Shown: in pieces, positions 1-17,504 of the stretch
Position numbering within the stretch: position 1 is the first letter of the stretch
How the letters are laid out: each line of letters begins with the position of its first letter
Assembly: GCA_023443625.1 (NCBI GenBank)
Contig: JAEZTQ010000006.1
Span: forward strand, 1-17,504
Source of the DNA: Bacillota bacterium
Lineage (GTDB): Bacteria; Bacillota_A; Clostridia; Lachnospirales; Lachnospiraceae
Direction of reading: 5' to 3'
DNA: 17,504 bases
Position numbers and translations under genes: made by a program
Notes under the pieces: model-generated
The model's input: only the letters and a program-made list of their open reading frames with translations
What the model was told of the DNA's origin: nothing
Databases searched by the model: none

Positions 1-77
1 TAGGTAAATGTTTATTCTACTTGCATAGAACAGAGAAATATCCTCCTTTTAAGAAAAAAGAAAGGAAAACTCGGAAA

Positions 78-3242: not shown

Positions 3243-3265
3243 GAAGGGGGAGAAAGGAGGTTAAT

Positions 3266-3709: not shown

Positions 3710-3789
3710 ATACATAATTTTTTAGCTAGTTACTAAAGATTGGTTTATTATCTTGATTTATGAGATTGCAATGATCTAATACAGATTGT

Positions 3790-3795
3790 GAGGTG
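3790..3795 (+). promoter_or_regulatory. Ribosome binding site that sets the cheC start
   Basis: GAGGTG lies 4 bases before the GTG at 3800. An earlier in-frame GTG at 3788 overlaps this SD and has no good SD of its own, so 3800 is preferred. Confidence 0.55.
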
Positions 3796-3799
3796 TATT

Positions 3800-4423: not shown

Positions 4424-4432
4424 GGTGAATAG

Positions 4433-4918
4433 ATGAACGAAATGATAAAAGTAGGGATGGCAGATTTAAATGTATGTGCCTCACCAAAAGCGCTAACAAC
4501 ATTGGGACTGGGATCCTGTGTAGGAATTGTGTTGTATGATTCTATAAGAAAAATAGCAGGATTGGCACATATTATGCTACCTGACAGCACAAAGATTATT
4601 AATAACGAAAACAAAGCAAAATTCGCAGATACAGGTATTGATCTATTAATTAGTGAGATGGTTAAAATAGGAGCTGAGCGCAGAGCCTTAATAGCTAAAA
4701 TTGCTGGTGGAGCCCAAATGTTTGCCTTCAGTAATAATAGTGAAATGATGAGAATCGGTGACCGTAATGTGGAAGCAACGAAAGCTAAATTGCAGGAATT
4801 AGGAATTGCTTTAAAGGCAGAAGATACTGGATTAAATTATGGTAGGACCATAGAGTTTTATCCTGAAACAGGGATTTTGCATATTAAATCTGTAGGAAAA
4901 GAAATTAAAATGCTATAA
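4433..4918 (+). CDS. cheD: CheD: chemoreceptor glutamine deamidase
   Basis: Deamidates specific glutamines on chemoreceptors and is controlled by binding to CheC. The 161-residue sequence has the family core: T23 and C29 in TLGLGSCVGI, followed by H46 in LAHIMLP. Together these give the Cys-His-Thr catalytic set expected from CheD structures. The gene starts 9 bases after the cheC stop with an AGGGTGA ribosome-binding site. Having cheB, cheC and cheD together means this organism combines methylation-type and CheC/CheD-type adaptation, as in B. subtilis. Confidence 0.95.
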   Translation: MNEMIKVGMADLNVCASPKALTTLGLGSCVGIVLYDSIRKIAGLAHIMLPDSTKIINNENKAKFADTGIDLLISEMVKIGAERRALIAKIAGGAQMFAFSNNSEMMRIGDRNVEATKAKLQELGIALKAEDTGLNYGRTIEFYPETGILHIKSVGKEIKML

Positions 4919-4948
4919 TTAGCTGCCTGATGGCAGTAGGAGGTTGGG

Positions 4949-5209
4949 ATGCGAGAAAGATATATACCGGCAGTTATTGTGCTTTTAGCTGCAGCAATTA
5001 CTGAAATTATCAATTTAGTAAATAAGGTAGATCGGCGTACAGCCCTAATACGATTACTGGTAGTAATAATCATATTTTATATTATGGGATTGATTATTAG
5101 AGCAGTAGTCACAAAAGTGTTAATCCAAGGACCTAAGGCTGATAGTATAGAAGCAGAAGAAATAGTGGAAACAGAAGAATTGTTAGAAGAAGTACCTATG
5201 GAAGAATAA
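4949..5209 (+). CDS. Small two-helix membrane protein with acidic tail, between cheD and sigD
   Basis: I do not recognise a named family. The 86-residue product has two predicted membrane helices (about 6-24 and 34-55) separated by a short charged loop (NKVDRRTALIR). A glutamate-rich cytoplasmic-looking tail follows (about 66-86, with repeated EE pairs ending in MEE). A GGAGG site precedes the ATG, 30 bases after cheD. B. subtilis has no gene at this position between cheD and sigD, so it is a lineage-specific operon member. A link to motility is inferred from position only. Confidence 0.75.
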   Translation: MRERYIPAVIVLLAAAITEIINLVNKVDRRTALIRLLVVIIIFYIMGLIIRAVVTKVLIQGPKADSIEAEEIVETEELLEEVPMEE

Positions 5210-5269
5210 AGATAAGATTACATCTATCATGATTTCTGCATACATAAGAGTTGAATTTCAGGAGGAGAT

Positions 5270-6037
5270 ATGAACGCTGAAAACAAACAAATGCTTTGGG
5301 AGGACTATGCAAAAAAAAGGACGCCAGAGCTCCAGGAAAAAATTTTAATTGAATATGCAGGATTGGTTAAATTGGTGGCAGGTCGTCTTAGCATGTACTT
5401 GGGATATAATGTAGAATATGATGATTTGGTAGGTTATGGTACATTTGGATTGATTGATGCAGTAGATAAATTTGATTATACAAAAGGTGTAAAATTCGAA
5501 ACCTATGCATCACTTAGAATACGAGGAGCAATATTAGATCAGATTCGTAAAATGGATTGGATTCCCAGGAGCATACGACAAAAACAGCGAAAAATAGATA
5601 TAGCCTGCCAAAGTTTAGAGAGTAAATTAGGTCGTATTGCTAATGATGAAGAGATAGCTTTAGAACTGGATATTACAGTTGAAGAATTGGAAACATGGCA
5701 GAATCAAACAAAGATTACTAATGTAATTTCCTTGGATGAATTTATGGATCAGGGTACTGAATCCAAGGTAGAACAAAGCTTAACAACGGACTATGAACAG
5801 CCAGATAAGATTTTTGAAAGACAAGAATTGAAAGAGATATTAATAAAGGTATTAGAGAGTTTAACTGAAAAAGAAAAAAAGGTCATTATATTATATTATT
5901 ACGAAGAATTAACTTTAAAGGAAATAAGCCATATTCTAGAGGTATCAGAATCACGTATTTCCCAATTACATACAAAGGCTTTACAAAAAATGAAATCAAA
6001 ACTGGGAGGTAATATAGAACTCGTATCCAGTTATTAA
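5270..6037 (+). CDS. sigD: Sigma-28 / SigD (FliA/WhiG family) motility sigma factor
   Basis: Directs RNA polymerase to late flagellar, chemotaxis and autolysin promoters. In 255 residues, region 2 (about 26-100) includes DDLVGYGTFGLIDAVDKFD and the -10-binding segment FETYASLRIRGAILDQIRK-DWIPRSIR. Region 3 runs from about 101 to 165. Region 4 (about 195-250) has the helix-turn-helix LTLKEISHILEVSESRISQLH. The phrase GAILDQIRxxDWxPRS is characteristic of sigma-28. AGGAGGAGAT lies just upstream of the ATG. Its place after cheD and before the SwrB-like gene matches B. subtilis. The anti-sigma FlgM gene is not in the window. Confidence 0.96.
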   Translation: MNAENKQMLWEDYAKKRTPELQEKILIEYAGLVKLVAGRLSMYLGYNVEYDDLVGYGTFGLIDAVDKFDYTKGVKFETYASLRIRGAILDQIRKMDWIPRSIRQKQRKIDIACQSLESKLGRIANDEEIALELDITVEELETWQNQTKITNVISLDEFMDQGTESKVEQSLTTDYEQPDKIFERQELKEILIKVLESLTEKEKKVIILYYYEELTLKEISHILEVSESRISQLHTKALQKMKSKLGGNIELVSSY

Positions 6038-6140
6038 ATATCCATTTTATATGGTTTATAAGATAATAGAACTATTTAGTAATTGTTGCTTTTGTGATAC
6101 AATCAACCATAAATATTTGTATACATGCTGGTAGATATTC

Positions 6141-6168
6141 CTTCAGAAAATCCCATCATTTTCTGAAG
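6141..6168 (+). terminator. Perfect 11-bp hairpin between sigD and the DUF342 gene
   Basis: CTTCAGAAAAT and ATTTTCTGAAG form a perfect inverted repeat around a 6-base loop (6152-6157). The 3' side is followed by CTTGTTGG rather than a run of T, so it is a poor intrinsic terminator. It could be a partial attenuator or an RNA-stability element that lowers expression of genes after sigD. It lies 46 bases before the next start codon. Confidence 0.45.
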
Positions 6169-6200
6169 CTTGTTGGTATTGTGATAGTGGATGCTATAAT

Positions 6201-6208
6201 AGGAGGGG
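6201..6208 (+). promoter_or_regulatory. Ribosome binding site that sets the DUF342 gene start
   Basis: AGGAGGGG ends 5 bases before the ATG at 6214. The frame is open for 40 more codons upstream, but that part crosses the 6141-6168 hairpin and has no SD, so the long version is rejected. Confidence 0.8.
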
Positions 6209-6213
6209 TACAA

Positions 6214-7818
6214 ATGAGAGGTAGAAACGGTTACTTTCAATTACTAATCAAGGATGATGGAACTTATCTGAAAATTGTTGAAGCAGAAGGGAAGGGAGAG
6301 GCTCTTTTTTTTGATGAAATCAGTAATTATTTGACTGACATGAAAATTTATGAATATGACAAAATCGCAGTTGGAAGAGCCATTACTTCACTAAAAGAAA
6401 CTGCTGAGGTAAAATTAACCAATGCTATTATAACTCCAATCAATGAATATGTTAAGATTAAAGTAGATGGAGAGCGTATGTATGCAGCAGGAAGATTCTA
6501 TCCGCCAACCAATAATGGACGAAACATAACAAGAGAAGATATCGTAAACGCTTTAGTAAGCGCAGGTGTAAAATGTGGTTTGGATGAAGAGGCAATCTCT
6601 GATTTTCTTCAAGAAAGGGAATACTGCAAGAATTATATTTTAGCAAAGGCTACGCCTGCAGTCCCGGGAAGTGATGCAGAGATAATATATCATTTTAATA
6701 CAGACCTTACCTTAAAACCAAAGAGAAATGAAGACGGATCGGTGGATTTTCATCAGCTGGATATGATTAGTCATTGTAATAAGGGTGATTTATTAGCAAC
6801 ATTAAAACCTATGGATCCTGGTAAACCTGGTATAGATGTCTGTGGCAATATTATTCGTCCTCTAAAGGTGAATAATCGTATTCTTAGACATGGCAATAAG
6901 ATAAGAGTGTCCGAGGATGGATTAAAGATGTATTCTGATGTTGATGGACATGTGAGCTTAACCGATGGGCGTGTATTTGTATCAGATACCTATGAAGTAT
7001 CGGCAGATGTTGATTCGTCTACCGGTGATCTTGTTTATGAAGGTAATGTTAATATAGCGGGAAATGTTATCACTGGCTTCTCTGTAAAAGCAAAGGGCAA
7101 TGTTGTTGTGAATGGTGTTGTTGAAGGCAGTTATATAGAAGCAGGGGGTCAAATAGTATTAAAACGTGGTATGCAGGGTATGAATAAAGGCGTTTTAAAA
7201 GCAAATGGTAACATTATTTCTAAATTTATTGAGAATGCTGAGGTTATTGCCGGTGGATATGTTTCCACAGAATCCATTCTCCATAGTAAAGTATCTGCAA
7301 AGGGAGATGTTATTGTAGGAGGCAGGAGAGGTTTTGTTACCGGTGGTGAAATAAGATCCGGTACCATGATATCAGTGAAAACAGCTGGATCTCAGATGGG
7401 GACCTTAACCTTGCTAGAAGTTGGTGTTGATCCTAAAATCATGGAGGAATACAGAGAGCTTGAAAAGAAAATAGCTACCATGATAGCAGATAAAGAAAAA
7501 ATTGCCCAGGCAATCGTTCTATTTCGTAAGAAACTCACTATGGGAGTACCAATTTCAGATGAGAAGAAGGATTATCTAAAACAGATAACGCAAAACAATA
7601 TTGTTCTTGACACTCAAATTAAAGAAGCACAAAAACGTTATGATGATTTACGTATTGATGCTGAGAATAATACTGCAGGAATCATTAAAGTATCCGATGT
7701 TGTTTATCCAGGAACAAAAATAGTGATTTCAAATGTTGTTTATTTTGTTCGTGATATGATACATTATAGTAAGTTTATGCGTGATCGTGCAGATATTAAG
7801 GTTACACCACTTGTATAG
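6214..7818 (+). CDS. FapA/DUF342 family polymer-forming protein
   Basis: A 534-residue member of the FapA (DUF342) family, common in flagellar and sporulation gene clusters of Clostridia. FapA of other bacteria is described as a flagellar-assembly-associated protein; the biochemical role is not settled. The N-terminal half (about 1-200) holds the conserved stretch around GRFYPPTNNGRNITREDI and ATPAVPGSDAEI. The middle has MDPGKPGIDVCGNII. Then comes a right-handed beta-helix-like region (about 275-410) made of repeats such as GNVNIAGNVITGFSVKAKGN and YIEAGGQIVLKRG. The C-terminus (about 410-500) is a charged coiled coil beginning near DPKIMEEYRELEKKI. It lies 176 bases after sigD, so it may be co-transcribed with it. 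No signal peptide is seen. Confidence 0.88.
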   Translation: MRGRNGYFQLLIKDDGTYLKIVEAEGKGEALFFDEISNYLTDMKIYEYDKIAVGRAITSLKETAEVKLTNAIITPINEYVKIKVDGERMYAAGRFYPPTNNGRNITREDIVNALVSAGVKCGLDEEAISDFLQEREYCKNYILAKATPAVPGSDAEIIYHFNTDLTLKPKRNEDGSVDFHQLDMISHCNKGDLLATLKPMDPGKPGIDVCGNIIRPLKVNNRILRHGNKIRVSEDGLKMYSDVDGHVSLTDGRVFVSDTYEVSADVDSSTGDLVYEGNVNIAGNVITGFSVKAKGNVVVNGVVEGSYIEAGGQIVLKRGMQGMNKGVLKANGNIISKFIENAEVIAGGYVSTESILHSKVSAKGDVIVGGRRGFVTGGEIRSGTMISVKTAGSQMGTLTLLEVGVDPKIMEEYRELEKKIATMIADKEKIAQAIVLFRKKLTMGVPISDEKKDYLKQITQNNIVLDTQIKEAQKRYDDLRIDAENNTAGIIKVSDVVYPGTKIVISNVVYFVRDMIHYSKFMRDRADIKVTPLV

Positions 7819-7908
7819 TGTGCATTATAAAACATAATTCACAGGGGAAGTTTGTGTAACTAATTTAAGGAGGAGAGCTGTCTGAAATAGGCAGAATGGA
7901 GGGTTGAT

Positions 7909-8220
7909 ATGGCAATAAGACCAATAGATATGGTGAAGACCCAGGAAGCGTCTCTGCTGAAGAATTTGGAAAGCCAAAAGCTTCAGAGTTCTGCCCTGCA
8001 GAGCGAGAAGAATTTTCACAATATGGTACAGCAGCAACAGCACAAGCCAACCAAGACTCCTCAGTCAGACAATACAGAGTATCGATACGATGCCAAAGAA
8101 AAGGGAAATAATCAGTACCAGAATCTTGGTAATAAGAAAAAAAATAAAGACAAAGAGAAAAAAGAAGATCTGAAATCAAAAAAAGCATCGAAAACTGGTG
8201 GAATTGATATTTTGATTTAA
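7909..8220 (+). CDS. Small Lys/Gln-rich conserved protein of the motility operon
   Basis: Function unknown. The 103-residue product has three parts: an N-terminal MAIRPIDMVKTQEASLLKNLE-like segment that is probably helical, a glutamine run (QQQQ near residue 42), and a very basic low-complexity region (about 63-95) of alternating K, E and N. It ends in IDILI. From memory, proteins with a MAIRPIDM-type start and an IDI-type end occur between DUF342 and SwrB-like genes in Clostridia, which supports a real gene. TGGAGGG lies 5 bases before the ATG, and the stop is 13 bases before the next gene. A second SD-like AAGGAGGAG at 7867-7875 has no usable start after it. Confidence 0.72.
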   Translation: MAIRPIDMVKTQEASLLKNLESQKLQSSALQSEKNFHNMVQQQQHKPTKTPQSDNTEYRYDAKEKGNNQYQNLGNKKKNKDKEKKEDLKSKKASKTGGIDILI

Positions 8221-8233
8221 CAACGGAGGCAAT

Positions 8234-8908
8234 ATGAACTCATTAGAAATAGCACTTATCATTATGGGGACAGTGGTTATTATAATCAGCTGCCTTCTGG
8301 TAGATAAAAGTAAGAAAACAACAGTGCAGACAGGTAGAAGTAGTGATAGTTCTCCAGATAAATTGTTATCTGTGGAGGATAAAAAGCAATTGAAAATTAA
8401 AGTAAATGAGCTTATATCCGAGGTGAGTGAAGATGTTGTTGGCAAAACAGAGGATACCCTTAGCAAAATATCAAATGAGAATATCATAGTAGTAAATGAA
8501 TTCTCTGAGCAATTATTGGAGAAGATTAACAGAAATCATGAAGAGGTTATATTTCTTTATAATATGCTAAATGATAAGGAGAAGGAGTTAAAAACTACGG
8601 TAAGGGAAATTGACGCTTATAATAGAAAGGCGCATGAAATCTTAGAAAGTAATGTAATTACTGAAGACAAGATCCCAGCTGAGGAGATTTATAATCTATC
8701 CAGTAGGGAGTATGCAGCAGATCTATTACAAGAATTGCAATTCGAAGACCTAGATAAGAATTCCTCCGAGAGTAGGAATGAAAATAGTAATGATGAAATC
8801 CTTTCCCTTTATTCCCAAGGAAAATCTGTAGTAGAGATATCAAAAGCCCTGGATCTTGGTCAAGGTGAAGTAAAATTGGTAATCGATTTATTTAATAAAA
8901 AGAACTAA
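8234..8908 (+). CDS. SwrB-like (DUF6115-type) membrane-anchored coiled-coil protein
   Basis: Probable counterpart of B. subtilis SwrB, which promotes assembly of the flagellar type III export apparatus and is encoded right after sigD. The 224-residue protein has one N-terminal membrane helix (about 4-23), a Ser/Lys-rich stretch, a long acidic coiled coil (about 50-140), an Asn/Ser-rich linker (about 172-186) and a C-terminal helix-turn-helix-like segment EILSLYSQGKSVVEISKAL at about 188-206. A membrane anchor, coiled coil and small HTH-like C-terminus make up the SwrB/DUF6115 layout. GGAGG precedes the ATG. The assignment rests on architecture and gene order, because primary sequence in this family is poorly conserved. 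Confidence 0.7.
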   Translation: MNSLEIALIIMGTVVIIISCLLVDKSKKTTVQTGRSSDSSPDKLLSVEDKKQLKIKVNELISEVSEDVVGKTEDTLSKISNENIIVVNEFSEQLLEKINRNHEEVIFLYNMLNDKEKELKTTVREIDAYNRKAHEILESNVITEDKIPAEEIYNLSSREYAADLLQELQFEDLDKNSSESRNENSNDEILSLYSQGKSVVEISKALDLGQGEVKLVIDLFNKKN

Positions 8909-8930
8909 TCGAAAGGCTTGGTGTAATAAA

Positions 8931-9641
8931 ATGAAATTGAAATATTATATGAGAGGCCTGGGAATTGGTATTATAATTACAACTCTAATTTTTGCCCTAG
9001 GTGGGAAAAAGGAGAAGCTTTCTGATCAGGAAATTGTGACACGTGCAGAAGCACTTGGTATGGTTGAAGAAGAGGATAATTCAAGTTTAGAAGAATTACT
9101 TAGTAAAATTGACCTTACAGGTACACCAATTCCAACCCCACCAAGTACTCCAACCCCTGACCCTGAACCTACAGTAGAACCAACAATATATCCAACAATT
9201 GAACCAACCACAAAGCCAACTCTTGAACCTACTCTAGAGCCAACGACTGAACCTACGGCGAAGCCAACAGCAAAACCAACGGCAAAACCAACGGCAAAGC
9301 CAACAGCAAAGCCAACAGCAAAGCCAAAGCCAACAGCAAAGCCAAAGCCAACAGCAGAACCTACCACAGAGCCAACAAAAGAGCCAACAGCTAACCCGAC
9401 AAAAGAGCCTAGTGCTCAAAATCCAGAGGATAATAAAAAGATTTCATTTACTATCGTATCTGGAATGGATTCTCAAAAAGTGGCTAATCTCTTACGTGAT
9501 AAAGGAATAATTGATGATGCCAAAGCCTTTAATCGATATATTGTTAAAGCAGGAAAAGCAGGTATTATTAGGGTTGGTAAATTTTCATTATACAAAGGTG
9601 CTTCATATGAAGATATAGTAAAGACTATAACAAAGAGTTAA
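8931..9641 (+). CDS. Membrane-anchored YceG/MltG-like protein with Pro-Thr repeat linker, no catalytic domain
   Basis: 236 residues: a short basic N-terminus, one membrane helix (about 8-24), an acidic helix (about 30-60), a long Pro/Thr-rich linker (about 64-162) and a C-terminal module (about 171-236). The module resembles the LysM-like subdomain of YceG/MltG endolytic transglycosylases: FTIVSGMDSQKVANLLRDKG, VGKFSLYKGASYEDIVKTI. The transglycosylase domain with its catalytic Glu is absent and the gene has a normal stop, so this is not an MltG enzyme. The layout suggests a cell-wall-spanning tether that carries a binding module outside the membrane. The SD is weak (AAGG about 14 bases upstream). 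It is the last gene of the motility region, followed by a terminator at 9697. Confidence 0.8.
   Translation: MKLKYYMRGLGIGIIITTLIFALGGKKEKLSDQEIVTRAEALGMVEEEDNSSLEELLSKIDLTGTPIPTPPSTPTPDPEPTVEPTIYPTIEPTTKPTLEPTLEPTTEPTAKPTAKPTAKPTAKPTAKPTAKPKPTAKPKPTAEPTTEPTKEPTANPTKEPSAQNPEDNKKISFTIVSGMDSQKVANLLRDKGIIDDAKAFNRYIVKAGKAGIIRVGKFSLYKGASYEDIVKTITKS
9252..9371 (+). repeat. 12-bp coding minisatellite (PTAK repeats)
   Basis: About eight 12-base units of the form CCAACAGCAAAG (encoding PTAK or close variants) run in frame. Two 6-base half units CCAAAG (Pro-Lys) are inserted at 9324-9329 and 9342-9347. Units at 9300-9311, 9312-9323 and 9330-9341 are identical; the outer units (9252-9263, 9348-9359, 9360-9371) have diverged. 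Changes in unit number would keep the reading frame and alter linker length. Confidence 0.9.
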
Positions 9642-9696
9642 TAAAGAAGAGGTATTATAGAAAGTGAAGGAAATTACTGGTATAAGTATAATATTT

Positions 9697-9721
9697 AAGG
9701 AGGGAGTTAGCTCCCTCCTTT
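9697..9721 (+). terminator. Intrinsic terminator between convergent genes
   Basis: AAGGAGGGAG and CTCCCTCCTT form a perfect 10-bp GC-rich stem with a TTAG tetraloop. The T run is short (TTT). The hairpin lies between the + strand YceG-like gene and the - strand rhodanese gene, so it may serve both directions. Confidence 0.85.
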
Positions 9722-9752
9722 AGTTCGTAATCATAAAAACAACGTATGAATT

Positions 9753-10157
9753 CTACTCATAGACTATATCATAGGGCCAATCGTTAATACCACCAAAGTC
9801 AATAACATCACTGTAACCAAGAGAAACTAATTCTTTTGCTGCAAGAGCACTTCTTCTACCACTACGACAGTAGACAAGAATCCTAGCATTTTTATCTGTA
9901 AGCATAGCTTCTGCTTTTTCTGTAATTTCTTCATTCGGTAGTAATATGGCATTTTCGATATGGCCTGTATCATATTCTTCTTTCGTTCTCACGTCTAGGA
10001 TAATATGATCCGTACTCTCTTCCATCATCTCCATCGCTTGACTTGCCGTTATTGTTTGATGTTGTAAAGCCTCTGCTTCTTTCTTTGAACTGCACCCAAT
10101 CAATAATGTTGTAATTACTAAGAGTAATAAGGCAATGGTAATCATTTTATAATTCAT
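9753..10157 (-). CDS. Rhodanese-domain lipoprotein
   Basis: Extracytoplasmic sulfur-handling protein. The 134-residue sequence begins with a lipoprotein signal peptide (about 1-21) ending in lipobox LIGC, with the lipidated Cys at 22 followed by SSKKE. A single rhodanese domain (about 35-134) follows, with VRTKEEYDTGHIENA and an active-site loop starting at C97 in YCRSGRRS, so the catalytic cysteine is retained. GAAAGGA lies upstream of the ATG. It is 36 bases downstream of the NapH-like gene and probably ends that operon. The physiological substrate cannot be read from the sequence; a role in thiosulfate, polysulfide or redox chemistry at the membrane fits the neighbours. Confidence 0.92.
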   Translation of the reverse strand: MNYKMITIALLLLVITTLLIGCSSKKEAEALQHQTITASQAMEMMEESTDHIILDVRTKEEYDTGHIENAILLPNEEITEKAEAMLTDKNARILVYCRSGRRSALAAKELVSLGYSDVIDFGGINDWPYDIVYE

Positions 10158-10193
10158 AATCGTGAATTCCTTTCACTTAATAAAGGTTTAAAT

Positions 10194-10772
10194 TTATTTA
10201 TTCCTTAATTTACATATTCCTTGTGTCATTGTACCCATAGGACAATATACGCACCAGGATCTAGGTTTATATAGAGACATTGTTATTAAACCCAAAATAG
10301 TGGAGGTAAGCATCACACTATAAAATCCAAAGGCAAACTGTGCTACCCAAGGTGCTATAATTGTACCATGATAAGCAAATTTCCATGGAACTTTAAAAGA
10401 CCATAGTACTTTTACTACCTGTTTCAGGCTTTCACTTCCTTCAAAAACTAAATAAGTTGAAAATATCATATTTATAAACATAATAAGAAAAAATATCAAA
10501 AAACCATAACGGAACCAATTTTTGCGAAGAAATGAAGGAATATCTTTATTTCTTGATAATTTCAGCTTATTTCCAACCAAGTCAAATAACTGACCTCTAC
10601 CACAATATTTATTACAATATCCTTTATTACCTTTTGTAATGGATATTATTAGTGGTATAACAAAACAAAATAGTCCTAACCAAGCAAAGATGATGTTAAC
10701 AAATCCTAGTATAAGATATAAAAGAGACATAATCCATAAATAATCATACCAATTCTTCTTTTTATTTTTCAT
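10194..10772 (-). CDS. NapH-like polytopic 4Fe-4S membrane protein
   Basis: 192-residue membrane protein with about four predicted helices (about 11-31, 32-46, 88-108 and 145-168). It has two cysteine clusters facing the same side: C53/C57 in GYCNKYCGRG, and C174/C177 plus C187 in WCVYCPMGTMTQGIC. This resembles the NapH/PceC-like proteins thought to pass electrons between the quinone pool and periplasmic or ferredoxin partners, but the clusters are not the canonical CxxCxxCxxxCP, so Fe-S binding is inferred. The ATG at 10772 is chosen because AAGGAGAGG sits 5 bases upstream; a longer in-frame version would start 10 codons earlier. The start overlaps the ferredoxin stop by 11 bases, implying translational coupling. 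Confidence 0.8.
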   Translation of the reverse strand: MKNKKKNWYDYLWIMSLLYLILGFVNIIFAWLGLFCFVIPLIISITKGNKGYCNKYCGRGQLFDLVGNKLKLSRNKDIPSFLRKNWFRYGFLIFFLIMFINMIFSTYLVFEGSESLKQVVKVLWSFKVPWKFAYHGTIIAPWVAQFAFGFYSVMLTSTILGLITMSLYKPRSWCVYCPMGTMTQGICKLRNK

Positions 10773-11010
10773 TGATCCTCTCCTTCGAAATATAAGCTTC
10801 ATTCATTGTAGTCTTTTCTATCCTTATAACAGATGCAGGACAGGCTTTTGCACACAAGGAGCATCCCACACACTTATCAGTATCAACCTCTGCATAGATG
10901 CCTTTTGTTATTGTCAGTGCATTTCTTGGACAAACTTTCATACATGACCCACAAGCTACACATTCTTTCTTATTTACGATAGCATATTTCTTTACCGTTT
11001 GTTTTATCAT
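10762..11010 (-). CDS. 2[4Fe-4S] ferredoxin
   Basis: Low-potential electron carrier. The 82-residue protein has two complete clusters: C17-x2-C20-x2-C23-x3-C27-P and C47-x2-C50-x2-C53-x3-C57-P, as in clostridial-type ferredoxins. It has extra basic residues at the N-terminus and a charged tail after about residue 66. GGAGG lies 5 bases before the ATG. It is the first gene of the minus-strand redox cassette and overlaps the NapH-like gene, making it the likely electron partner of that membrane protein. Confidence 0.92.
   Translation of the reverse strand: MIKQTVKKYAIVNKKECVACGSCMKVCPRNALTITKGIYAEVDTDKCVGCSLCAKACPASVIRIEKTTMNEAYISKERINEK
10777..10785 (-). promoter_or_regulatory. Ribosome binding site inside the ferredoxin gene that sets the NapH-like start
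   Basis: AAGGAGAGG on the minus strand, within the last codons of the ferredoxin gene, is well spaced for the ATG at 10772. Confidence 0.7.
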
Positions 11011-11109
11011 ACATACCTCCTAATCTAATTTTCTTAATTATATCTATCCTTTATTAGTTTTTCTGTAACTTAATCACTCTCACAAAAAAGATTGCTAATA
11101 ATTTCATAG

Positions 11110-11123
11110 CTTCTAATTAGAAG
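11110..11123. promoter_or_regulatory. 14-bp perfect palindrome upstream of the redox operon
   Basis: CTTCTAATTAGAAG is its own reverse complement. It sits about 100 bases upstream of the ferredoxin start and about 65 bases upstream of the rpsB -35 box, in the divergent intergenic region. It could be an operator for a dimeric regulator; which regulator is unknown. Confidence 0.35.
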
Positions 11124-11155
11124 GGTGGAATTTACTTTTGCAATTCAGTCTACTA

Positions 11156-11170
11156 ACTTGAGGGTCAAGT
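11156..11170. promoter_or_regulatory. Dyad ACTTGA-GGG-TCAAGT upstream of the rpsB promoter
   Basis: Perfect 6-bp arms with a 3-base centre, 16 bases upstream of the rpsB -35 hexamer. As RNA the 3-base loop would be tight, so a protein-binding dyad is more likely than a hairpin. It may belong to rpsB or to the divergent redox operon. Confidence 0.3.
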
Positions 11171-11186
11171 CATTATTAAATAGTGC

Positions 11187-11215
11187 TTGCTTTACTTATA
11201 AAATCATGTTATAAT
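11187..11215 (+). promoter_or_regulatory. Sigma-A promoter for rpsB-tsf
   Basis: TTGCTT (11187-11192) and TATAAT (11210-11215) are separated by 17 bases, with an extended -10 TG at 11207-11208. Transcription would begin near 11222, giving a leader of about 100 bases before rpsB. This is the best-looking housekeeping promoter in the window and implies that rpsB-tsf has its own promoter apart from the motility operon. Confidence 0.85.
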
Positions 11216-11313
11216 TTCAAAGGCAAATTACACGCATATTGATTCATTACAAGGTGCCAAATTATAATTCGGTCTGTAAAGAATATGACATATGCGGAAG
11301 AAAACAACCAAAT

Positions 11314-11319
11314 GGAGGT
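11314..11319 (+). promoter_or_regulatory. Ribosome binding site that sets the rpsB start
   Basis: GGAGGT followed by a 5-base spacer to the ATG at 11325; this selects the shorter of two in-frame starts. Confidence 0.85.
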
Positions 11320-11324
11320 CAATT

Positions 11325-12074
11325 ATGAGCGTTATTTCAATGAAGCAGTTATTGGAAGCTGGTGTACATTTCGGACACCAAACAAGAAGATGGAACCCTA
11401 AAATGGCGGAGTACATCTACACAGAGAGAAATGGTATCTATATCATCGACTTACAGAAATCTGTAGGTAAGGTTGATGAAGCTTACACAGCAATTAAGAA
11501 TGTGGTAGCTGATGGTGGTTCAATTCTTTTTGTTGGTACTAAGAAGCAGGCTCAGGATGCTGTTAAGACAGAGGCAGAGCGTTGTGGTATGTTCTTTGTT
11601 AATGAGAGATGGTTAGGCGGTATGTTAACTAACTTCAAGACTATCAAGAGCAGAGTAGAGAGATTAAAAGAAATCGAAAGAATGTCTGAAGATGGTACTT
11701 TTGATGTTCTTCCTAAAAAAGAAGTTATCCAACTTAAGAAAGAGTGGGAGAAGCTTGAGAAGAACCTTGGTGGTATTAAGAGCATGAAGAAGATTCCTGA
11801 TGCAATCTTTGTTGTTGACCCTAAGAAGGAAAGAATTTGTATTCAAGAAGCTCACAACCTTGGTATACCCCTTATCGGTATAGCAGATACTAACTGTGAT
11901 CCAGAAGAATTAGATTATGTAATTCCAGGTAATGATGACGCTATCAGAGCCGTTAAATTGATAGTTTCTAAGATGGCAGATGCTGTAATCGAAGCAAATC
12001 AGGGTGTTCAATTAACTAATTCAAGCGAAGAGACTGATGCTGAAGTTGATATTGAAGACGCAGTTACAGTATAA
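11325..12074 (+). CDS. rpsB: 30S ribosomal protein S2
   Basis: Essential small-subunit protein, needed for late 30S assembly and for recruiting S1-type function. It has 249 residues from the ATG at 11325. The family signature near the N-terminus is clear ([19 protein letters not shown], then [17 protein letters not shown]). The C-terminal half has [12 protein letters not shown] and [20 protein letters not shown]. The last 20 residues are acidic. GGAGG at 11314-11318 decides the start; an in-frame ATG at 11292 has no SD and would add 11 basic residues foreign to the family. Codon use is biased as expected for a highly expressed gene. Confidence 0.97.
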
Positions 12075-12147
12075 TTATAGATTAACATTATTATTTGAAA
12101 TGCTGACACCCAAATTTGCGGTGCTTTAAGCAGAATGGAGGATTTAT

Positions 12148-13080
12148 ATGGAAGTTACTGCTAGTATGGTAAAAGAGTTAAGAGAAATAACAAGTGCCGG
12201 AATGATGGATTGCAAGAAAGCTCTTGCAGCTACAGAAGGCGATATGGATAAAGCAGTTGAGTTCTTAAGAGAAAAGGGACTTGCTGCAGCTGAGAAAAAA
12301 GCAGGCAGAATCGCAGCTGAAGGTATTGTTGATGTCAATATTAGTGCAGATGGTAAAATTGCTGCTATTGTTGAAGTTAATAGCGAAACAGACTTCGTTG
12401 CTAAGAATGAGAAGTTTAGAGATTTTGTTGCTGCTGTCGTAGCACAGGCAACTAAGACTACTGCAGCTGATATTGAGACCTTCATGGAAGAGAAGTGGGC
12501 ACTTGATACTTCTAAGACAGTAAAAGAAGAATTATCTTCTTTAATTGCTGTTATCGGCGAGAACATGAATGTAAGAAGATTTACTAAAGTAGAAGCAACC
12601 AATGGTTTTGTTTGTTCTTATATCCATGGTGGCGGAAGAATTGGTATCCTTGTTGATGTTGAAACAACTGTTAACAACGCTGAAGTACAGGAAGCTGCTA
12701 AAAATGTTGCAATGCAGATTGCTGCTTTAAATCCTAAGTATGTAAATCAATCAGAAGTTTCCGCAGATTACCTTGCTCATGAGAAGGATATTATTAAAGC
12801 ACAGATTAAGAATGATCCTTCCAATCAGAAGAAACCTGAGAATATTATTGAGAAGATGATCGATGGTCGTTTAAATAAGCAATTAAAAGAAATCTGCCTT
12901 GTTGATCAGGTATATGTAAAAGATAGCGAGCTAACTGTAGCTCAGTATCTTGCAAATGTATCGAAACAAGTAGGTGCATCTGTAGCTATTAAGCGTTTCG
13001 TTCGTTTTGAGACCGGTGAAGGTCTTGAGAAAAAGAGCGAGAACTTTGCAGAAGAAGTTGCAAAGCAGATGGGGCAGTAA
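12148..13080 (+). CDS. tsf: Elongation factor Ts
   Basis: Nucleotide-exchange factor that reloads EF-Tu with GTP. The 310-residue protein opens with a UBA-like domain (about 1-45) containing the signature ITSAGMMDCKKAL. Next comes the N-terminal core with VEVNSETDFVAKNEKF at about 72-87 (the TDFV motif contacts EF-Tu), then a C-terminal core with CSYIHGGGRIGILVDVE. GGAGG lies 6 bases before the ATG. It follows rpsB by 73 bases and is presumably co-transcribed. Length is usual for the type with a complete second core. A strong terminator lies directly downstream. Confidence 0.97.
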   Translation: MEVTASMVKELREITSAGMMDCKKALAATEGDMDKAVEFLREKGLAAAEKKAGRIAAEGIVDVNISADGKIAAIVEVNSETDFVAKNEKFRDFVAAVVAQATKTTAADIETFMEEKWALDTSKTVKEELSSLIAVIGENMNVRRFTKVEATNGFVCSYIHGGGRIGILVDVETTVNNAEVQEAAKNVAMQIAALNPKYVNQSEVSADYLAHEKDIIKAQIKNDPSNQKKPENIIEKMIDGRLNKQLKEICLVDQVYVKDSELTVAQYLANVSKQVGASVAIKRFVRFETGEGLEKKSENFAEEVAKQMGQ

Positions 13081-13114
13081 GGTTAATTTAGCATAATTTT
13101 ATAATGAATATATA

Positions 13115-13177
13115 GGAGGCTCTAAAAGCCTGTAACTATCGCATATATGCGGTTTACAGACTTTTAGGGTCTCTTTT
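13115..13177 (+). terminator. Strong intrinsic terminator after tsf
   Basis: The 19-base arms 13117-13135 and 13154-13172 pair with one mismatch and two G-T pairs. The loop region contains a further perfect 12-bp palindrome CGCATATATGCG (13140-13151), so the hairpin can extend. It is followed by CTTTT. It closes the rpsB-tsf unit and marks the end of the conserved chromosomal segment. Confidence 0.9.
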
Positions 13178-13188
13178 AATTTAAGCTT

Positions 13189-13208
13189 AAAACCTCGTAA
13201 AACCTCGT
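13189..13208 (+). repeat. Tandem 10-bp direct repeat at the island junction
   Basis: Two exact copies of AAAACCTCGT back to back (13189-13198, 13199-13208), followed by the related GAAACGATAT. This lies in the 336-base gene-free stretch between tsf and abiEi (13081-13416), which otherwise holds only the terminator, a second repeat pair, and the putative abiE promoter and operator. Confidence 0.8.
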
Positions 13209-13232
13209 GAAACGATATGGAAACTGGGCTCG

Positions 13233-13252
13233 ATTTGCGTAAAATTTGCGTA
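13233..13252 (+). repeat. 11-bp-period direct repeat at the island junction
   Basis: ATTTGCGTA occurs at 13233-13241 and again at 13244-13252, a period of 11 bases (one helical turn). With the 10-bp repeats just before, this may be a set of protein-binding sites or the scar of an integration site. Confidence 0.75.
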
Positions 13253-13330
13253 CAACAATCCTTGGTGTAGCATAGTTTAAAAAACAAATAAAACAGTCTT
13301 TTGGCAACCTAAAATATAATAAAAATAAAC

Positions 13331-13358
13331 TTGCAATATTTCTAAAATATGTTAATGT
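13331..13358 (+). promoter_or_regulatory. Candidate promoter for the abiE operon
   Basis: TTGCAA (13331-13336), a 16-base spacer and TAATGT (13353-13358), with an extended -10 TG at 13350-13351. The -10 is imperfect. Transcription would start near 13365, upstream of the dyad at 13378-13397. Confidence 0.4.
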
Positions 13359-13377
13359 GGTTTATAAATAGAAGAAA

Positions 13378-13397
13378 ACAGTTTATATATGAACTGT
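13378..13397. promoter_or_regulatory. Candidate AbiEi operator (inverted repeat)
   Basis: ACAGTT and AACTGT are inverted around 8 AT-rich bases, ending 19 bases before the abiEi GTG. AbiEi proteins studied elsewhere repress their own operon by binding inverted repeats in the promoter region, so the position fits. A single copy of the left half site (AAACAGT) also occurs at 13291-13297. Confidence 0.5.
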
Positions 13398-13416
13398 AAT
13401 TGATAGAAAGTAAACG

Positions 13417-13956
13417 GTGAATAATATGAATCTATATTTTGAATTAATGCAAGTACCTGTATTTACAATGGAAGATGTTTGTAAGTATTATGATAAAATT
13501 GAAAGTGCACGTTCGGCAGTTAAGCGTCTCGTAAAACAGGGAACAGTGGTTAAAATACGAAATAATATGTATACCTGTATCAGTGGAGAAACCGGAGCAC
13601 CTATTGCCAATCGATTTCAAATTGCCAGTTGTATCACACCAACATCATATGTTTCACATCATACAGCAATGGAGTATTATGGTGTGGCTGATCAGGTTTA
13701 CTATGATGTATATGTTTCTTCAGAGACAAAGTTTCAAACATTTGATTTTTATGGTTACACATATCGATGTATTATGGCAAAATGTAAGCAAGGAATTGAA
13801 ACTGTAAAATACAGCGGCGGTGTTAAAATAACGAATAAAGAGCGCACATTGGTGGATTGTATTAAGGATATAGATAAAATATCAGGACTAGAAGAAACTA
13901 TGGCAAATGTCCAGGGATTGCATAATTTACAGGAAAAAAAATATTACAGTATTTAG
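13417..13956 (+). CDS. abiEi: AbiEi antitoxin/repressor, N-terminal two-thirds (frame ends early)
   Basis: Antitoxin and autorepressor of a type IV (AbiE) toxin-antitoxin system. This frame gives 179 residues. A winged helix-turn-helix (about 15-55: TMEDVCKYYDKIESARSAVKRLVKQG then VVKIRNNMY) is followed by the conserved AbiEi segments SYVSHHTAMEYYGV (about 77-90) and KITNKERTLVDCI (about 137-149). Reading then passes an A8 run and stops after LQEKKYYSI. The expected continuation is found in the -1 frame from 13941, and a full product would be 257 residues. Start: GTG at 13417 with AGAAAG 7 bases upstream; an ATG at 13426 is possible. As read, the protein keeps its DNA-binding domain but lacks the end of the C-terminal domain, which work on other AbiEi proteins shows is needed for neutralising the toxin. 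Confidence 0.85.
   Translation: MNNMNLYFELMQVPVFTMEDVCKYYDKIESARSAVKRLVKQGTVVKIRNNMYTCISGETGAPIANRFQIASCITPTSYVSHHTAMEYYGVADQVYYDVYVSSETKFQTFDFYGYTYRCIMAKCKQGIETVKYSGGVKITNKERTLVDCIKDIDKISGLEETMANVQGLHNLQEKKYYSI
13935..13941 (+). other. A-AAA-AAA slippery heptamer where the abiEi frame is lost
   Basis: The zero frame reads GAA AAA AAA TAT over an A8 run (13934-13941). A -1 slip on A-AAA-AAA, or one extra A in the DNA or RNA, joins ...LQEKK to ILQYLEVYNNQF..., the normal AbiEi sequence. Only a weak 5-bp stem (TACAG 13945-13949 with CTGTA 13977-13981) could act as a downstream stimulator. Confidence 0.6.
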
Positions 13957-14189
13957 AAGTGTATAACAATCAATTTCTGTATCAAAAGATAGGGTTTCTG
14001 TTATGGAACATAAGGACACAACTTGGTTTGTCAGATGCCTTTTTTGAAGTGTGTATGAAAAGGATTGGTAAAAGCAAACGGTACTTAACCAAGGATGCGA
14101 GTGATATGGTATATGACAATGTTTGGAAAATTATTGCACCAAAGAATATCGCCCATATAAAGAACGGAGAGGGTATTATAGATGATTGA
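13941..14189 (+). pseudogene. abiEi: AbiEi C-terminal portion in the -1 frame
   Basis: Eighty-two codons that continue AbiEi: ILQYLEVYNNQFLYQKIGFL, then LGLSDAFFEVCMKRIGKSKRYL and VWKIIAP, all typical of AbiEi C-termini. The stop at 14187-14189 overlaps the abiEii ATG at 14182 by 8 bases, the compact junction expected of an intact abiEi-abiEii pair, which argues that this frame is the authentic gene end. There is no convincing SD for independent translation; a GTG at 13959 would need re-initiation. I class it as a fragment because the DNA as given does not join it to the N-terminal part. Recoding or a missing A in the sequence would make it part of a functional 257-residue protein. Confidence 0.8.
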
Positions 14190-15126
14190 GTATAATAAAG
14201 CACAAATCGGACGGATTGCAACTAAGAACGGCTTTGTTCGAGATACGTTTGAAAAGGTGCTCCGATTAAAAGAAATATTAAAATTTATCAATGAGCATGA
14301 ATATCTACGAGAGCATATTTTGCTAAAGGGTGGTACAGCAATAAATTTGACGATATTTAATCTCCCGAGACTTTCGGTTGATATAGATATGGATTTCGTA
14401 CCAAACTATAATCGTGAAGTTATGGGCCTTGCACGAGAAAAGATAACACAAATACTAAAGGAATATATGTCACAGGAAGGATATCAACTTTCTCCGGTGT
14501 CAAGATTTAGCTTTAGCCTAGATGCACTTCACTTTCAATATCAAAATGCAGGTGGTAATCGAGATAGTATTAAGGTTGAAATAAATTATTCACTGAGAAC
14601 ACATATCTTGGAACCGGTAAAGTGCAAAATACTAACTGATATTTTTGAAGATGAGATGGAAATCCTTACACTTGCGCCAATGGAAATATTTTCGGCAAAA
14701 GCAAATGCATTAATGAGCAGAGCAGCAGCAAGGGATTTATATGATTTCAATAACATGGAGTATTATGGCTTATTTGGTGAGTCGGAGCGAGACCTGTTTC
14801 GAAAATGCATTATATTCTACAATACTATATCACAAGAAAAAGTGAATAAAACCTTTGACACGTCAGCTATCGATACTATAAACTTTTCAAAAATCAAAAG
14901 AGATTTATTTCCGGTTCTTAGAAAAAAAGATAACTTTGATTTGGACGAAAGAAAGCAGCGAGCAAAAAAATACATTAAGGAACTAATGATTGTAACTGCT
15001 GATGAAATGGAATTTATGAATGCATTCGAAAATAAAGAATATAAGCCAGAACTTTTATTTGATAATGAGAAGATAATTGAACGGTTGAAAGATCGTCCGA
15101 TGGCAATGTGGAAGATGAATCGATAA
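14182..15126 (+). CDS. abiEii: AbiEii-family nucleotidyltransferase toxin
   Basis: Toxin of the type IV AbiE system (DUF1814 nucleotidyltransferase fold). Relatives bind GTP, and the mycobacterial MenT relatives add nucleotides to tRNA 3' ends, so inhibition of translation is a likely outcome. Across 314 residues the active-site motifs are intact: G50-G51-T52-A-I-N, then R63-x-S65-x-D67-I-D69 (metal-binding Asp pair), E133 in KVEINY as probable third acidic ligand, and K173 with R180, R184, D185 and D188 in AKANALMSRAAARDLYDF. GGAGAGGG lies 8 bases before the ATG, which overlaps the abiEi stop. Arginine codons are often CGA, unlike the AGA/CGT-rich rpsB and tsf, suggesting acquisition by transfer. 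No frame damage is seen. Confidence 0.93.
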   Translation: MIEYNKAQIGRIATKNGFVRDTFEKVLRLKEILKFINEHEYLREHILLKGGTAINLTIFNLPRLSVDIDMDFVPNYNREVMGLAREKITQILKEYMSQEGYQLSPVSRFSFSLDALHFQYQNAGGNRDSIKVEINYSLRTHILEPVKCKILTDIFEDEMEILTLAPMEIFSAKANALMSRAAARDLYDFNNMEYYGLFGESERDLFRKCIIFYNTISQEKVNKTFDTSAIDTINFSKIKRDLFPVLRKKDNFDLDERKQRAKKYIKELMIVTADEMEFMNAFENKEYKPELLFDNEKIIERLKDRPMAMWKMNR

Positions 15127-15144
15127 ACGGTTGGAGGTGCAGGA

Positions 15145-17504
15145 ATGAATATAGAGGCTTATGACCTTGACTCACTTAGAAAAATAGTGCGAGCTCTTCA
15201 AAAAGAAAATGAAGCATTGAAATATAAGCTAAAAAAGGCTGATATAGCATACGATGCTCCTAATCCATTTGAGGAGACAATAGAGAGTATTAATGAGTAT
15301 GATCCTGATCAGGGAGAGCGTATTCTTGGAAGATATATAACAGAGGATTTAGCAAAACGATATTTTGCTATGTTTTGGGGTAGAGATGACGTTTATGCCA
15401 AAAGAGGTAAGAATGGCGGATATTTTCCACAGTGTGATAACAGATGGAATGATGCCTTGTGTCCAAAACAACGTGGTGAAAAAATGTTTTGTGATGATTG
15501 TGAGCACACAAAATGGACTAAGCTTGATTTGAAGAAAATTATAAGTCATCTTGTTGGCAAAAAAGAGGATGGAACAGATGTACTTGGAGTTTATCCGCTT
15601 TTACCAGATGGTACATGTAGATTTATAGTATTTGATTTTGATAACCATGAAAAGGATGCAGAGAAGACGGATTTTGCTAATACAGATGATGAATGGCATG
15701 ATGAAGTAGATGCACTTAGGAAAATGTGTGAGCAGAATGGCATTAAGGCTTTGGTTGAAAGGTCTCGTTCTGGAAGAGGCGCTCATGTATGGATATTCTT
15801 TAAAAGACCAATAGCTGCATCTTTAGCAAGAAATTTTGGCTTTCTTTTACTGGACAAGGGATCCGCTTCTATTAATTTGAAATCTTTTCACTATTATGAC
15901 AGGATTTATCCTTCTCAGGATGTTGCTAGCCGTATTGGTAATTTAATTGCTCTTCCATTACAAGGACAAGCTCTTACAAGTGGAAACAGTGCTTTTGTGG
16001 ATGAAAACTGGAATGCATATCCTGATCAATGGAAGGTTTTGTTAGAGAAAACAGAAAAGCTATCGTTGGAAGATATCGAGAAGTATATGGTAAAATGGCA
16101 GGTAGAACTTGCCGAAGCCAGGGGAATGATTGCGGGTGGAAGTAGACCTAAGCCGTGGAAAAAGAAGGAGGGATTTGCGAAAGCAGATGTTGTAGGAAAA
16201 GTCCATTTGGTTCTGAGTAATGGTGTATATGTTGATACGCTTAACCTAATGCCGCGTTTACAGAATCAGATCCGGAGTATGGCAGCCTTTGATAATCCTG
16301 AGTTTTATAAAAACAAGCGTCTTGGCTATTCGAATTATTATAATTTTAGTGCTGTATATCTTGGTAAAGATATAGATGGGTATATAAGGATTCCACGTGG
16401 ACTGAGGGAGTCTGTTATTGAAGAATGTGAGAAAGCTGGAATTGGTATAGATATTACGGATAAGAGAGAAAAGGGGCGTCCAATTAGAGTATCATTCAAC
16501 GGGGATTTAAGAACACAGCAAGATCTTGCTGCACAGAAATTACTTTCTTATACCGATGGATTATTGAGTGCGGCTACTGCATTTGGTAAGACGGTAGTAT
16601 GTAGCTACTTGATTTCGCAAAGAAAAGTGAATACTTTAATTTTGTTGCAGAGTAAAGATCTGCTAAACCAGTGGGTGGATGAACTAAATAAATTTCTGGA
16701 TATAAAGGAAGAGACACCAGAATATGAGACAAAGACTGGACGGAAAAAGAAACGAGAAAGTGTCATTGGAATTTTACATGGAAGTAAGAATACATTAACA
16801 GGAATTGTTGATGTAGCTATGGTTGGTTCTATGTATAGCAAGGGCAAATTCAATGAGTTAATCAATTCTTATGGAATGGTGATAATGGACGAATGTCATC
16901 ATGCTGCATCCAATACATCTATGGAGCTATTGCTGAAGGTTGATGCAAAATATGTATATGGCGTATCAGCTACGCCTAAAAGAGGCGATAGCCTGGACAA
17001 AATCATATATATGATGCTTGGGCCACTGCGTCATAAGTTCACTGCGCTTGAAAGAGCAGAAGAACAGGGCATTGGGTATTATTTTATTCCAAGGTATACC
17101 AGAGTGGTCGATACGTATGAAAGTAAAGATGATATAAATCATGCATATGGTTTGATTAGTTCCAGCAATGTCAGAAATGAAATGATTATTAGCGATGTAA
17201 GGGAATGTATCACAGCGGGACATACTCCGGTTATTCTTACAAAATATAAAGAGCATGCGAAACTTTTATATGACGAACTGAAAGGTAGTGCTGATCACGT
17301 ATTCATTTTGTATGGAGACAATACTGATAAAGAAAATGCTGAAATCAGAGTGTCTCTAAAAGTAGTTAAAAAGGATGAAAGCCTTATTCTGGTAGCAACA
17401 GGACAGAAAATTGGAGAAGGCTTTGATTTTCCAAGACTTGACGTACTGATGTTAGCTGCACCGGTTTCATTTGAAGGACGTCTGGAACAATATGTTGGAA
17501 GGTT
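15145..17504 (+). CDS. AEP primase-SF2 helicase fusion of the TOTE conflict-system type (3' end outside window)
   Basis: Large enzyme, 786 residues visible with no stop. Domains: N-terminal coiled coil (about 8-32); Cys cluster C97/C106/C116/C119 with H121, a possible zinc site; archaeo-eukaryotic primase domain (about 55-300) with hhDhD at FDFD 163-166, and S209-G-R-G-A-H214-V-W (second AEP motif), then RIYPSQD and RIGNLIALPLQ (about 253-273); linker; superfamily II helicase (from about 455) with motif I ATAFGKT 477-483, DECH box 582-585, motif III SATP 608-611 and motif V GEGFDFP. The window ends inside motif VI (QYVGR, 782-786). GGAGG is 7 bases before the ATG, 18 bases after abiEii, so it is probably co-transcribed with the toxin-antitoxin pair. 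Proteins of this type are predicted to act in defence against invasive DNA; activity here is inferred. Confidence 0.85.
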   Translation, partial: MNIEAYDLDSLRKIVRALQKENEALKYKLKKADIAYDAPNPFEETIESINEYDPDQGERILGRYITEDLAKRYFAMFWGRDDVYAKRGKNGGYFPQCDNRWNDALCPKQRGEKMFCDDCEHTKWTKLDLKKIISHLVGKKEDGTDVLGVYPLLPDGTCRFIVFDFDNHEKDAEKTDFANTDDEWHDEVDALRKMCEQNGIKALVERSRSGRGAHVWIFFKRPIAASLARNFGFLLLDKGSASINLKSFHYYDRIYPSQDVASRIGNLIALPLQGQALTSGNSAFVDENWNAYPDQWKVLLEKTEKLSLEDIEKYMVKWQVELAEARGMIAGGSRPKPWKKKEGFAKADVVGKVHLVLSNGVYVDTLNLMPRLQNQIRSMAAFDNPEFYKNKRLGYSNYYNFSAVYLGKDIDGYIRIPRGLRESVIEECEKAGIGIDITDKREKGRPIRVSFNGDLRTQQDLAAQKLLSYTDGLLSAATAFGKTVVCSYLISQRKVNTLILLQSKDLLNQWVDELNKFLDIKEETPEYETKTGRKKKRESVIGILHGSKNTLTGIVDVAMVGSMYSKGKFNELINSYGMVIMDECHHAASNTSMELLLKVDAKYVYGVSATPKRGDSLDKIIYMMLGPLRHKFTALERAEEQGIGYYFIPRYTRVVDTYESKDDINHAYGLISSSNVRNEMIISDVRECITAGHTPVILTKYKEHAKLLYDELKGSADHVFILYGDNTDKENAEIRVSLKVVKKDESLILVATGQKIGEGFDFPRLDVLMLAAPVSFEGRLEQYVGR

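Follow-up and report, generated by a model that had tools for sequence, protein, structure and literature searches.

AbiE type IV toxin-antitoxin systems consist of an antitoxin-repressor gene followed by a gene for a DUF1814/PF08843 nucleotidyltransferase toxin with four motifs; excerpts of Dy et al. 2014 (PMC3985639) describe AbiEi as an autorepressor that also neutralises AbiEii, AbiEii as a bacteriostatic toxin resembling nucleotidyltransferases, and the pair as able to confer phage resistance and stabilise plasmids. TOTE (TPR, OB, TBP, Effector) conflict systems (Aravind et al. 2022, as cited in excerpted text of PMC12458937) have lent their name to PF22548 (AEP-TOTE), a model of the archaeo-eukaryotic primase (AEP) domain, while CreTA-type guards of CRISPR-Cas, in the excerpted account of PMC9458426, place an addiction module beside a defence effector and make it costly to lose. 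Here we examine a 17,504-nucleotide stretch of a Lachnospiraceae genome (GenBank assembly GCA_023443625.1, contig JAEZTQ010000006.1, positions 1 to 17,504; hereafter the window), in which three genes were confirmed on the + strand 3' of tsf: abiEi, abiEii and a gene for an AEP primase fused to a superfamily 2 (SF2) helicase, below called the AEP-helicase. The locus shares its first two genes and the toxin motifs with AbiE systems, and differs from them by the third gene, which follows within 18 bp, and by a frame-broken abiEi. Unlike CreTA, the modules considered here are protein toxin-antitoxin pairs, are exchanged and stand without CRISPR (no search aimed at cas genes was made), and a guarding role is something we infer.

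Four features were observed directly: the close same-strand gene order, its recurrence with divergent AbiE subtypes, a swap of the upstream half with the change falling where the genes meet, and blocks of three genes that end where those genes end. The reading we favour, to which these sequence comparisons give about an even chance, is that of a mobile cassette in which an exchangeable toxin-antitoxin module directly upstream of a stand-alone AEP-primase/SF2-helicase effector would guard that effector, gate it, or both. Each half is known already; the combination of AbiE with an AEP-helicase has no description among the open-licence literature matches listed. The relevant features of the window are as follows.

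13059..13080, + strand: 3' end of tsf, putative attachment site (21-bp sequence, single copy in the window)
13417..13956, + strand: abiEi, antitoxin/autorepressor (PADLOC AbiEi), with a winged helix-turn-helix (wHTH) and the first part of the C-terminal domain; the frame ends early
13953..14189, + strand: C-terminal remainder of abiEi, in a frame different from that of the abiEi start; overlaps abiEii by 8 bases
14182..15126, + strand: abiEii, DNA-polymerase-beta-type nucleotidyltransferase toxin of 314 aa (PF08843, PADLOC, motifs I-IV)
15127..15144, + strand: 18-bp gap with a Shine-Dalgarno-like GGAGG; local alignments with loci L001, L002 and L067 start at 15130-15132
15145..17502, + strand: AEP primase - SF2 helicase (PF22548, PF04851), continuing past the window end

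The original prediction, that three genes share one strand and that an 18-base gap with its own Shine-Dalgarno sequence separates abiEii from the helicase gene, was borne out on both counts. Its 8-base overlap between abiEi and abiEii applies to the tail frame (14182-14189) and not to the frame that starts at 13417, which stops at 13956.

Recurrence of AbiE upstream of AEP-helicase genes

A search of genome contigs with the window helicase gave 278 relatives, of which 80 loci were kept. In all, 170 loci were searched, duplicates included, and the 168 that had a TOTE match were surveyed with our own profiles of five AbiEii subtypes. These subtypes, A to E, are our own grouping by iterated profiles, in which B is loose and one locus, L118, was recovered with both the B seed and the E seed. 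An abiEii gene lay within about 0.6 kb upstream of AEP-TOTE, on the same strand, in 20 of the 168 loci and in two phyla: 16 loci are from Clostridia (including L006 and L007, which have common TOTE DNA) and four are Arcobacteraceae plasmids. Pairings involved subtype A in the window, L002, L035, L119 and L120; B in L006, L007, L009, L017, L052 and L067; C in L015, L047 and L122; D in L121; and E in L118, L199, L204, L205 and L206. Taking each open frame to begin at its first start codon, the gap was at most 170 bp in 15 of the 20, with an overlap of 4 in L035, and 0.2-0.53 kb in L006, L007, L009, L017 and L047; the toxin gene stood farther upstream in L055 (1.26 kb) and L162 (1.42 kb). PADLOC identified the gene before abiEii as AbiEi in all eight loci scanned (L199, L067, L015, L122, L121, L118, L017 and L120), covering all five subtypes. 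No AbiEii was found less than 1 kb downstream of TOTE, nor any close AbiEii in another order or strand, in the 168 loci; L002 carries an AbiEii remnant about 1.36 kb past its TOTE gene. The adjacency noticed in the original prediction is thus not unique to one strain, recurring in 20 loci with several AbiE subtypes and distant TOTE lineages.

The main rival explanation is that two independent defence modules land together in islands or hot spots, where compact insertion would give short gaps without any functional link. We consider this rather unlikely, given that order and strand are constant across the 168 loci and that the pairing recurs in another phylum, with one and the same 6-bp gap in four plasmids. 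It is also opposed by the one-sidedness of the neighbours: AbiEii is the commonest Pfam family among 63 close upstream neighbours (9 cases) and is not among the 25 families listed for 56 close downstream neighbours, these two sets (A1 and A2) being limited to same-strand genes of at least 90 aa that lie no more than 300 bp away and do not start at a contig edge.

A draw of 392 genomes from the order of a Blautia genome (G004, locus L012), related to the window, yielded 48 that carry AEP-TOTE, and AbiEii (PF08843) was searched in these and in seven others. AbiEii lay close upstream on the same strand in five of the 48 (G115, G210, G299, G349 and G379), a fraction that does not represent five independent events, since the G210 and G299 cassettes are related (TOTE 90% identical). 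With 52 TOTE matches and 48 AbiEii matches in these genomes (AbiEii being present in 30 of them), uniform placement would be expected to give about 0.012 cases of AbiEii at most 1.5 kb upstream on the same strand, or 0.24 with an arbitrary 20-fold island factor, compared with the five observed. Control genes from the same 48 genomes further weaken the case for independent co-landing: no AbiEii occurred within 3 kb of any of 33 HsdR or 84 AlbA_2 genes, the nearest AlbA_2/AbiEii pair being 3.4 kb apart (G349, with TOTE between) and the next 5.9 kb (G288), with no HsdR within 6 kb. In Fisher tests the contrast was not significant against HsdR alone (0.076), and gave 0.0055 against AlbA_2 and 0.0018 against both.

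Among plasmids, 111 records matched the AEP-helicase, mostly annotated as DEAD/DEAH box helicase among those read. In a sample of 22 regions picked by eye for variety, AbiE was adjacent in four, all from Arcobacteraceae, three of which were chosen because the first had it. The AbiE-TOTE pairing is therefore a minority arrangement, found mainly in Lachnospiraceae-like Clostridia and also on these four plasmids.

Exchange of the upstream module and mobility

The window, L001, L002 and L067 have 89-93% identity in their TOTE DNA, and the alignments with the window begin 4-6 bases after the abiEii stop. The pairs upstream of that border differ: AbiE-A1 in the window, HipA_2/DUF3037 in L001, AbiE-A2 in L002 (its AbiEii 52% identical to that of the window) and AbiE-B in L067. 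Similarly, the TOTE DNA of L119 and L120 (AbiE-A) is 84-86% identical to that of L122 (AbiE-C), with an alignment that begins no more than 40 bp before the end of abiEii in L119 and just past that gene in L120; the match between L119 and L120 themselves spans the whole three-gene block. L047 and L045 are 99.3-99.5% identical on either side of a 1.93-kb stretch that carries AbiE-C in L047 and is missing from L045, with about 11 bp common at the joint. A FastTree tree of 118 AEP-helicases has nine changes between presence and absence of AbiE, a rough count given several long branches, and the subtype E AbiEii of L118 is 44% identical to that of Aliarcobacter, compared with 29% for their helicases. 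Judging from the broken abiEi of the window, the broken abiEii of L035 and the AbiE-free L045, the helicase gene can stay while the AbiE pair decays or is lost.

Other toxin-antitoxin types were also found at the same place. In L071 (9223-9952) an MNT-like gene (by eye) and a HEPN-like gene (PF08780) precede, by 18 bp, an AEP-helicase gene split into two frames, and in an Acinetobacter plasmid HigB and a regulator lie 25 bp before the AEP-helicase gene. On three other plasmids HipA-type genes are near, not tightly beside, the AEP-helicase gene; such loose cases weigh little because plasmids are rich in toxin-antitoxin genes.

These exchanges bear on the possibility of a dedicated three-gene immune system, in which the AEP-helicase would sense or process invader nucleic acid and directly activate AbiEii, for instance by titrating AbiEi or by producing 3' ends for AbiEii to extend. 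Such a system would accord with the conserved order, with the three-gene blocks of L002 and Arcobacteraceae, and with the action of both enzyme families on nucleic acids, MenT relatives being described in excerpts of PMC10435456 as extending tRNA acceptor stems. Nevertheless, the replacement of AbiE by divergent subtypes and by MNT-HEPN-, HigB- or HipA_2-type genes argues against specific AbiE-helicase contacts, TOTE persists without AbiE, and we regard direct activation as improbable; the dedicated partnership suggested by the original prediction is weakened by the same swaps. Since different toxin-antitoxin pairs occupy the same place, the simplest reading is that they form a module that would protect the effector from loss, set its expression and supply a suicide arm, rather than taking part in a specific AbiEii-helicase reaction. 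More broadly, and tentatively, the comparisons raise the possibility of a general defence architecture, in which AEP-primase/SF2-helicases would travel in miniature mobile cassettes with an interchangeable upstream toxin-antitoxin socket that would gate expression and, should the effector fail, serve as the suicide arm. The socket's occupants would then be AbiE (five kinds), MNT-HEPN, HigBA and HipA_2/DUF3037.

Evidence for mobility comes from tsf, identified in the window by a TIGR00116 match and preceded by a gene that is rpsB-like by eye. In L002 a second copy of the terminal 21 bp of tsf lies 5.5 kb downstream of the first (7711-7731 and 13216-13236), and the only + strand frames of at least 100 codons between the repeats are abiEi, abiEii and TOTE; the minus strand holds one 116-codon stop-to-stop stretch, overlapping TOTE, and no integrase-sized frame was found in this unit. 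The repeat also occurs twice in L067 (1776-1796 and 4204-4224) and in L035 (3190-3210 and 7993-8013, with 2-3 mismatches to the pattern), where the copies surround other inserts and AbiE-TOTE comes after. Among 299 genomes from the family of G002, the source of L002, the motif (at most one mismatch) was present in 25 and in two copies in three: G002, G364 (on two contigs) and G892, whose repeats (locus L207) enclose MATE transporter-like and kinase-like genes (by eye). Because these duplications surround differing inserts, we read the tsf 3' end as a putative attachment site used by several cargoes. In Aliarcobacter, L199 and L206 share a homologous block of 3.8 kb (92% identical) that ends about 80 bp upstream and about 10 bp downstream of the three genes, and the flanks beside it are unmatched. 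The use of the tsf 3' end by other cargo (L207), the many other neighbours of TOTE, and the gain or loss of AbiE as a unit (L047 vs L045) are the observations that speak for independent co-landing.

A further alternative appears highly unlikely: the AEP-helicase would serve a mobile element in its replication or maintenance, with AbiE as the element's addiction module. This would fit the 111 plasmid records and the role of AEP proteins as plasmid replication proteins elsewhere (excerpts of PMC4158269), and it could draw on the serine recombinase (Resolvase) genes that form the commonest downstream family (12 of 56 neighbours), although most of these are 71-97% identical to the first. The recombinase gene follows so closely that it overlaps the AEP-helicase gene, or all but touches its end, in L003, L004, L005, L006, L009, L011, L013, L041, L059, L069 and L079. 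The L002 unit, on the other hand, holds no + strand frame of 100 codons or longer besides its three genes and so no mobility or replication gene of that size, and an element integrated in the chromosome has no need of a replicase.

A small protein of about 108-116 aa is encoded 3-24 bp before TOTE in L017 (9611-9961), L009 (2357-2686), L003 (719-1045) and L005 (325-654); it lies between AbiE-B and TOTE in L009 and L017, and the L017 copy has no Pfam match. Elsewhere in the window, 8931-9641 encodes a protein with a long PT-rich repeat run, perhaps a wall-spanning linker.

The two halves compared with described families

The frame of abiEi runs from a GTG start at 13417 to a stop at 13956, and its 179-residue product matches PADLOC AbiEi (3.4e-73) over positions 1-171 of the 251-position profile, with PF13338 at 0.0021, under the family cut-off. 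The tail frame (13953-14189) has no Pfam match; searched separately, it and the N-terminal piece match the same unbroken open reading frames in L002 (13549-14313, 254 aa, 93% DNA identity) and L035 (8241-8996), and abiEi is a single open frame of 251-261 aa in L002, L035, L119 and L120. Before the abiEii of the window, the AbiEi family is thus recognised, but an AbiEi with a wHTH and an intact C-terminal domain is missing, the frame being broken. As the L002 relative is unbroken, the window gene is either a truly broken copy or contains a sequence error in an A-rich stretch; the shared AbiEi repression envisaged by the original prediction is for this reason doubtful in the window allele. AbiEii, on the other hand, matches PF08843 at 3.7e-22 and PADLOC AbiEii at 5.7e-122. 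Excerpts of Dy et al. 2014 (PMC3985639) define the toxin by hG[G/S]x15DhD, a Lys/Arg motif III and a +DxxD motif IV, and in an alignment motifs I-IV are all intact in the window protein (GG-x15-DID, K, R and RDLYD; GG-x15-DxD was checked).

The AEP-helicase protein of the window matches PF22548 at 1.3e-74 (251 bits, cut-off 27) and ResIII (PF04851) at 6.8e-17, with Helicase_C at 0.0025, under its cut-off; it is truncated by the window end at residue 786, full-length relatives having about 980-1000 residues. The window protein has the DFD and SGxGAH primase motifs, four Cys, and the FGKT and DECHH helicase motifs, all of them conserved in 93% or more of 95 full-length relatives. It also matches PADLOC PrimPol (3.3e-57) and NCBIfam PrimPol_Msp (6.3e-25, although at 87.7 bits against a cut-off of 200). 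Its relative in L002 matches PDB 7nqd/7nqf at 1.1e-8 over the AEP core; we take these entries to be CRISPR-associated primase-polymerase (CAPP) structures, and their listing names TPR_REGION proteins. The AEP core is thus alike in PrimPol/CAPP, whereas here it is fused to an SF2 helicase, a further difference being that the L120 relative matches PLDc_2 at its C-terminus (PF13091, 9.7e-9; no such match in the L002 relative). The PLD family motif is H-x-K-x4-D. Five of seven AEP-helicase C-termini compared have H-x-A-x-x-D, with H replaced by R in L006 and by N in L118, and HxK(x4)[DE] was found in the C-terminal part of nine of 96 proteins, a set that includes the window protein, whose sequence stops short of this region. 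A catalytic C-terminal PLD nuclease is therefore not claimed. The AEP-helicase gene is in two frames, or misassembled, in L001, L015, L049, L050, L060, L070, L071 and L076, and seems to decay often.

No relatives of the AEP-helicase were found among viral contigs. Among phage records, an unannotated 'Bacteriophage sp.' contig from human faeces (L161, 9122-9751) ends in a fragment that has 74% identity with residues 1-209 of the window protein; the other matches had under 60% identity and under 80% query cover, and involved the helicase part only in the 19 others listed of 108 records. The domains of the protein, together with its island and plasmid neighbourhoods, suggest that it acts as a defence effector.

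The original prediction had called the primase-helicase TOTE-type, which proved right for the domain, as the window protein carries the AEP-TOTE effector domain, and does not extend beyond the name to the system. TBP (PF00352), one of the components that define TOTE systems, was absent from all 14 related genomes searched, each an AEP-TOTE carrier and eight with the AbiE-TOTE pairing (the window's own genome is not one of the 14), and the same profile was positive in four archaeal control genomes. The TPR-OB (cold-shock) family was likewise absent from the 25 families listed for each of the upstream and downstream neighbour sets, in which no dedicated search for it was made. Given the missing TBP, membership of the cassette in TOTE systems proper is rejected.

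Proposed mechanism and its biological meaning

The mechanism we propose would involve co-transcription, a role in defence, addiction and abortive action. The short gaps, together with the lack of any terminator-like site found on the + strand in a scan of 13050-15400, make a single abiEi-abiEii-helicase transcript plausible. AbiEi would repress the promoter before abiEi and, via read-through, abiEii and the helicase gene; the primase-helicase would act on invader nucleic acid, the toxin-antitoxin pair would make loss of the cassette costly, and phage take-over would remove AbiEi, such that AbiEii stops growth as a back-up arm. If the sequence is correct, this guard may already be decaying in the window allele.

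Several observations weigh against a guarded or gated effector. Promoter-like sites occur on the + strand inside abiEii (16 on both strands of the scanned region versus 11.1 expected), so the helicase could have a separate transcript, and abiEi is broken in the window. Decay also affects other paired loci, with abiEii broken in L035 and L047 and TOTE a fragment in L121 and split in L204, and of the near-twins L045 and L047, both with TOTE, L045 has no AbiE. Close upstream AbiE is absent from 43 of the 48 order-draw genomes, and in a phylum-wide draw (398 genomes, 31 with AEP-TOTE, G004 being in both draws) it was found in none of the 30 besides G004, G492 having AbiEii about 1.4 kb upstream; some TOTE matches in these draws lie near contig ends. 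The cassettes of the window, L002, L067 and L035 sit at one insertion hot spot. Furthermore, many upstream neighbours are not toxin-antitoxin genes (RNA methyltransferase, flavin reductase, AlbA_2, GNAT), and a same-strand gene lies close downstream of TOTE in 46 loci, not many fewer than the 52 with one close upstream, a count that leaves out seven duplicates with shared TOTE DNA (L007, L012, L027, L047, L135, L151 and L152), of which L047 differs from L045 in AbiE.

Toxin-antitoxin genes often accompany defence genes, and may do so as fellow travellers or as working parts. Because related effectors carry different modules or none, with the change falling at a gene border, isogenic comparisons could test whether the module serves as guard, regulator or back-up. 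If our reading is true, it would provide a first function for the widespread AEP-helicases.

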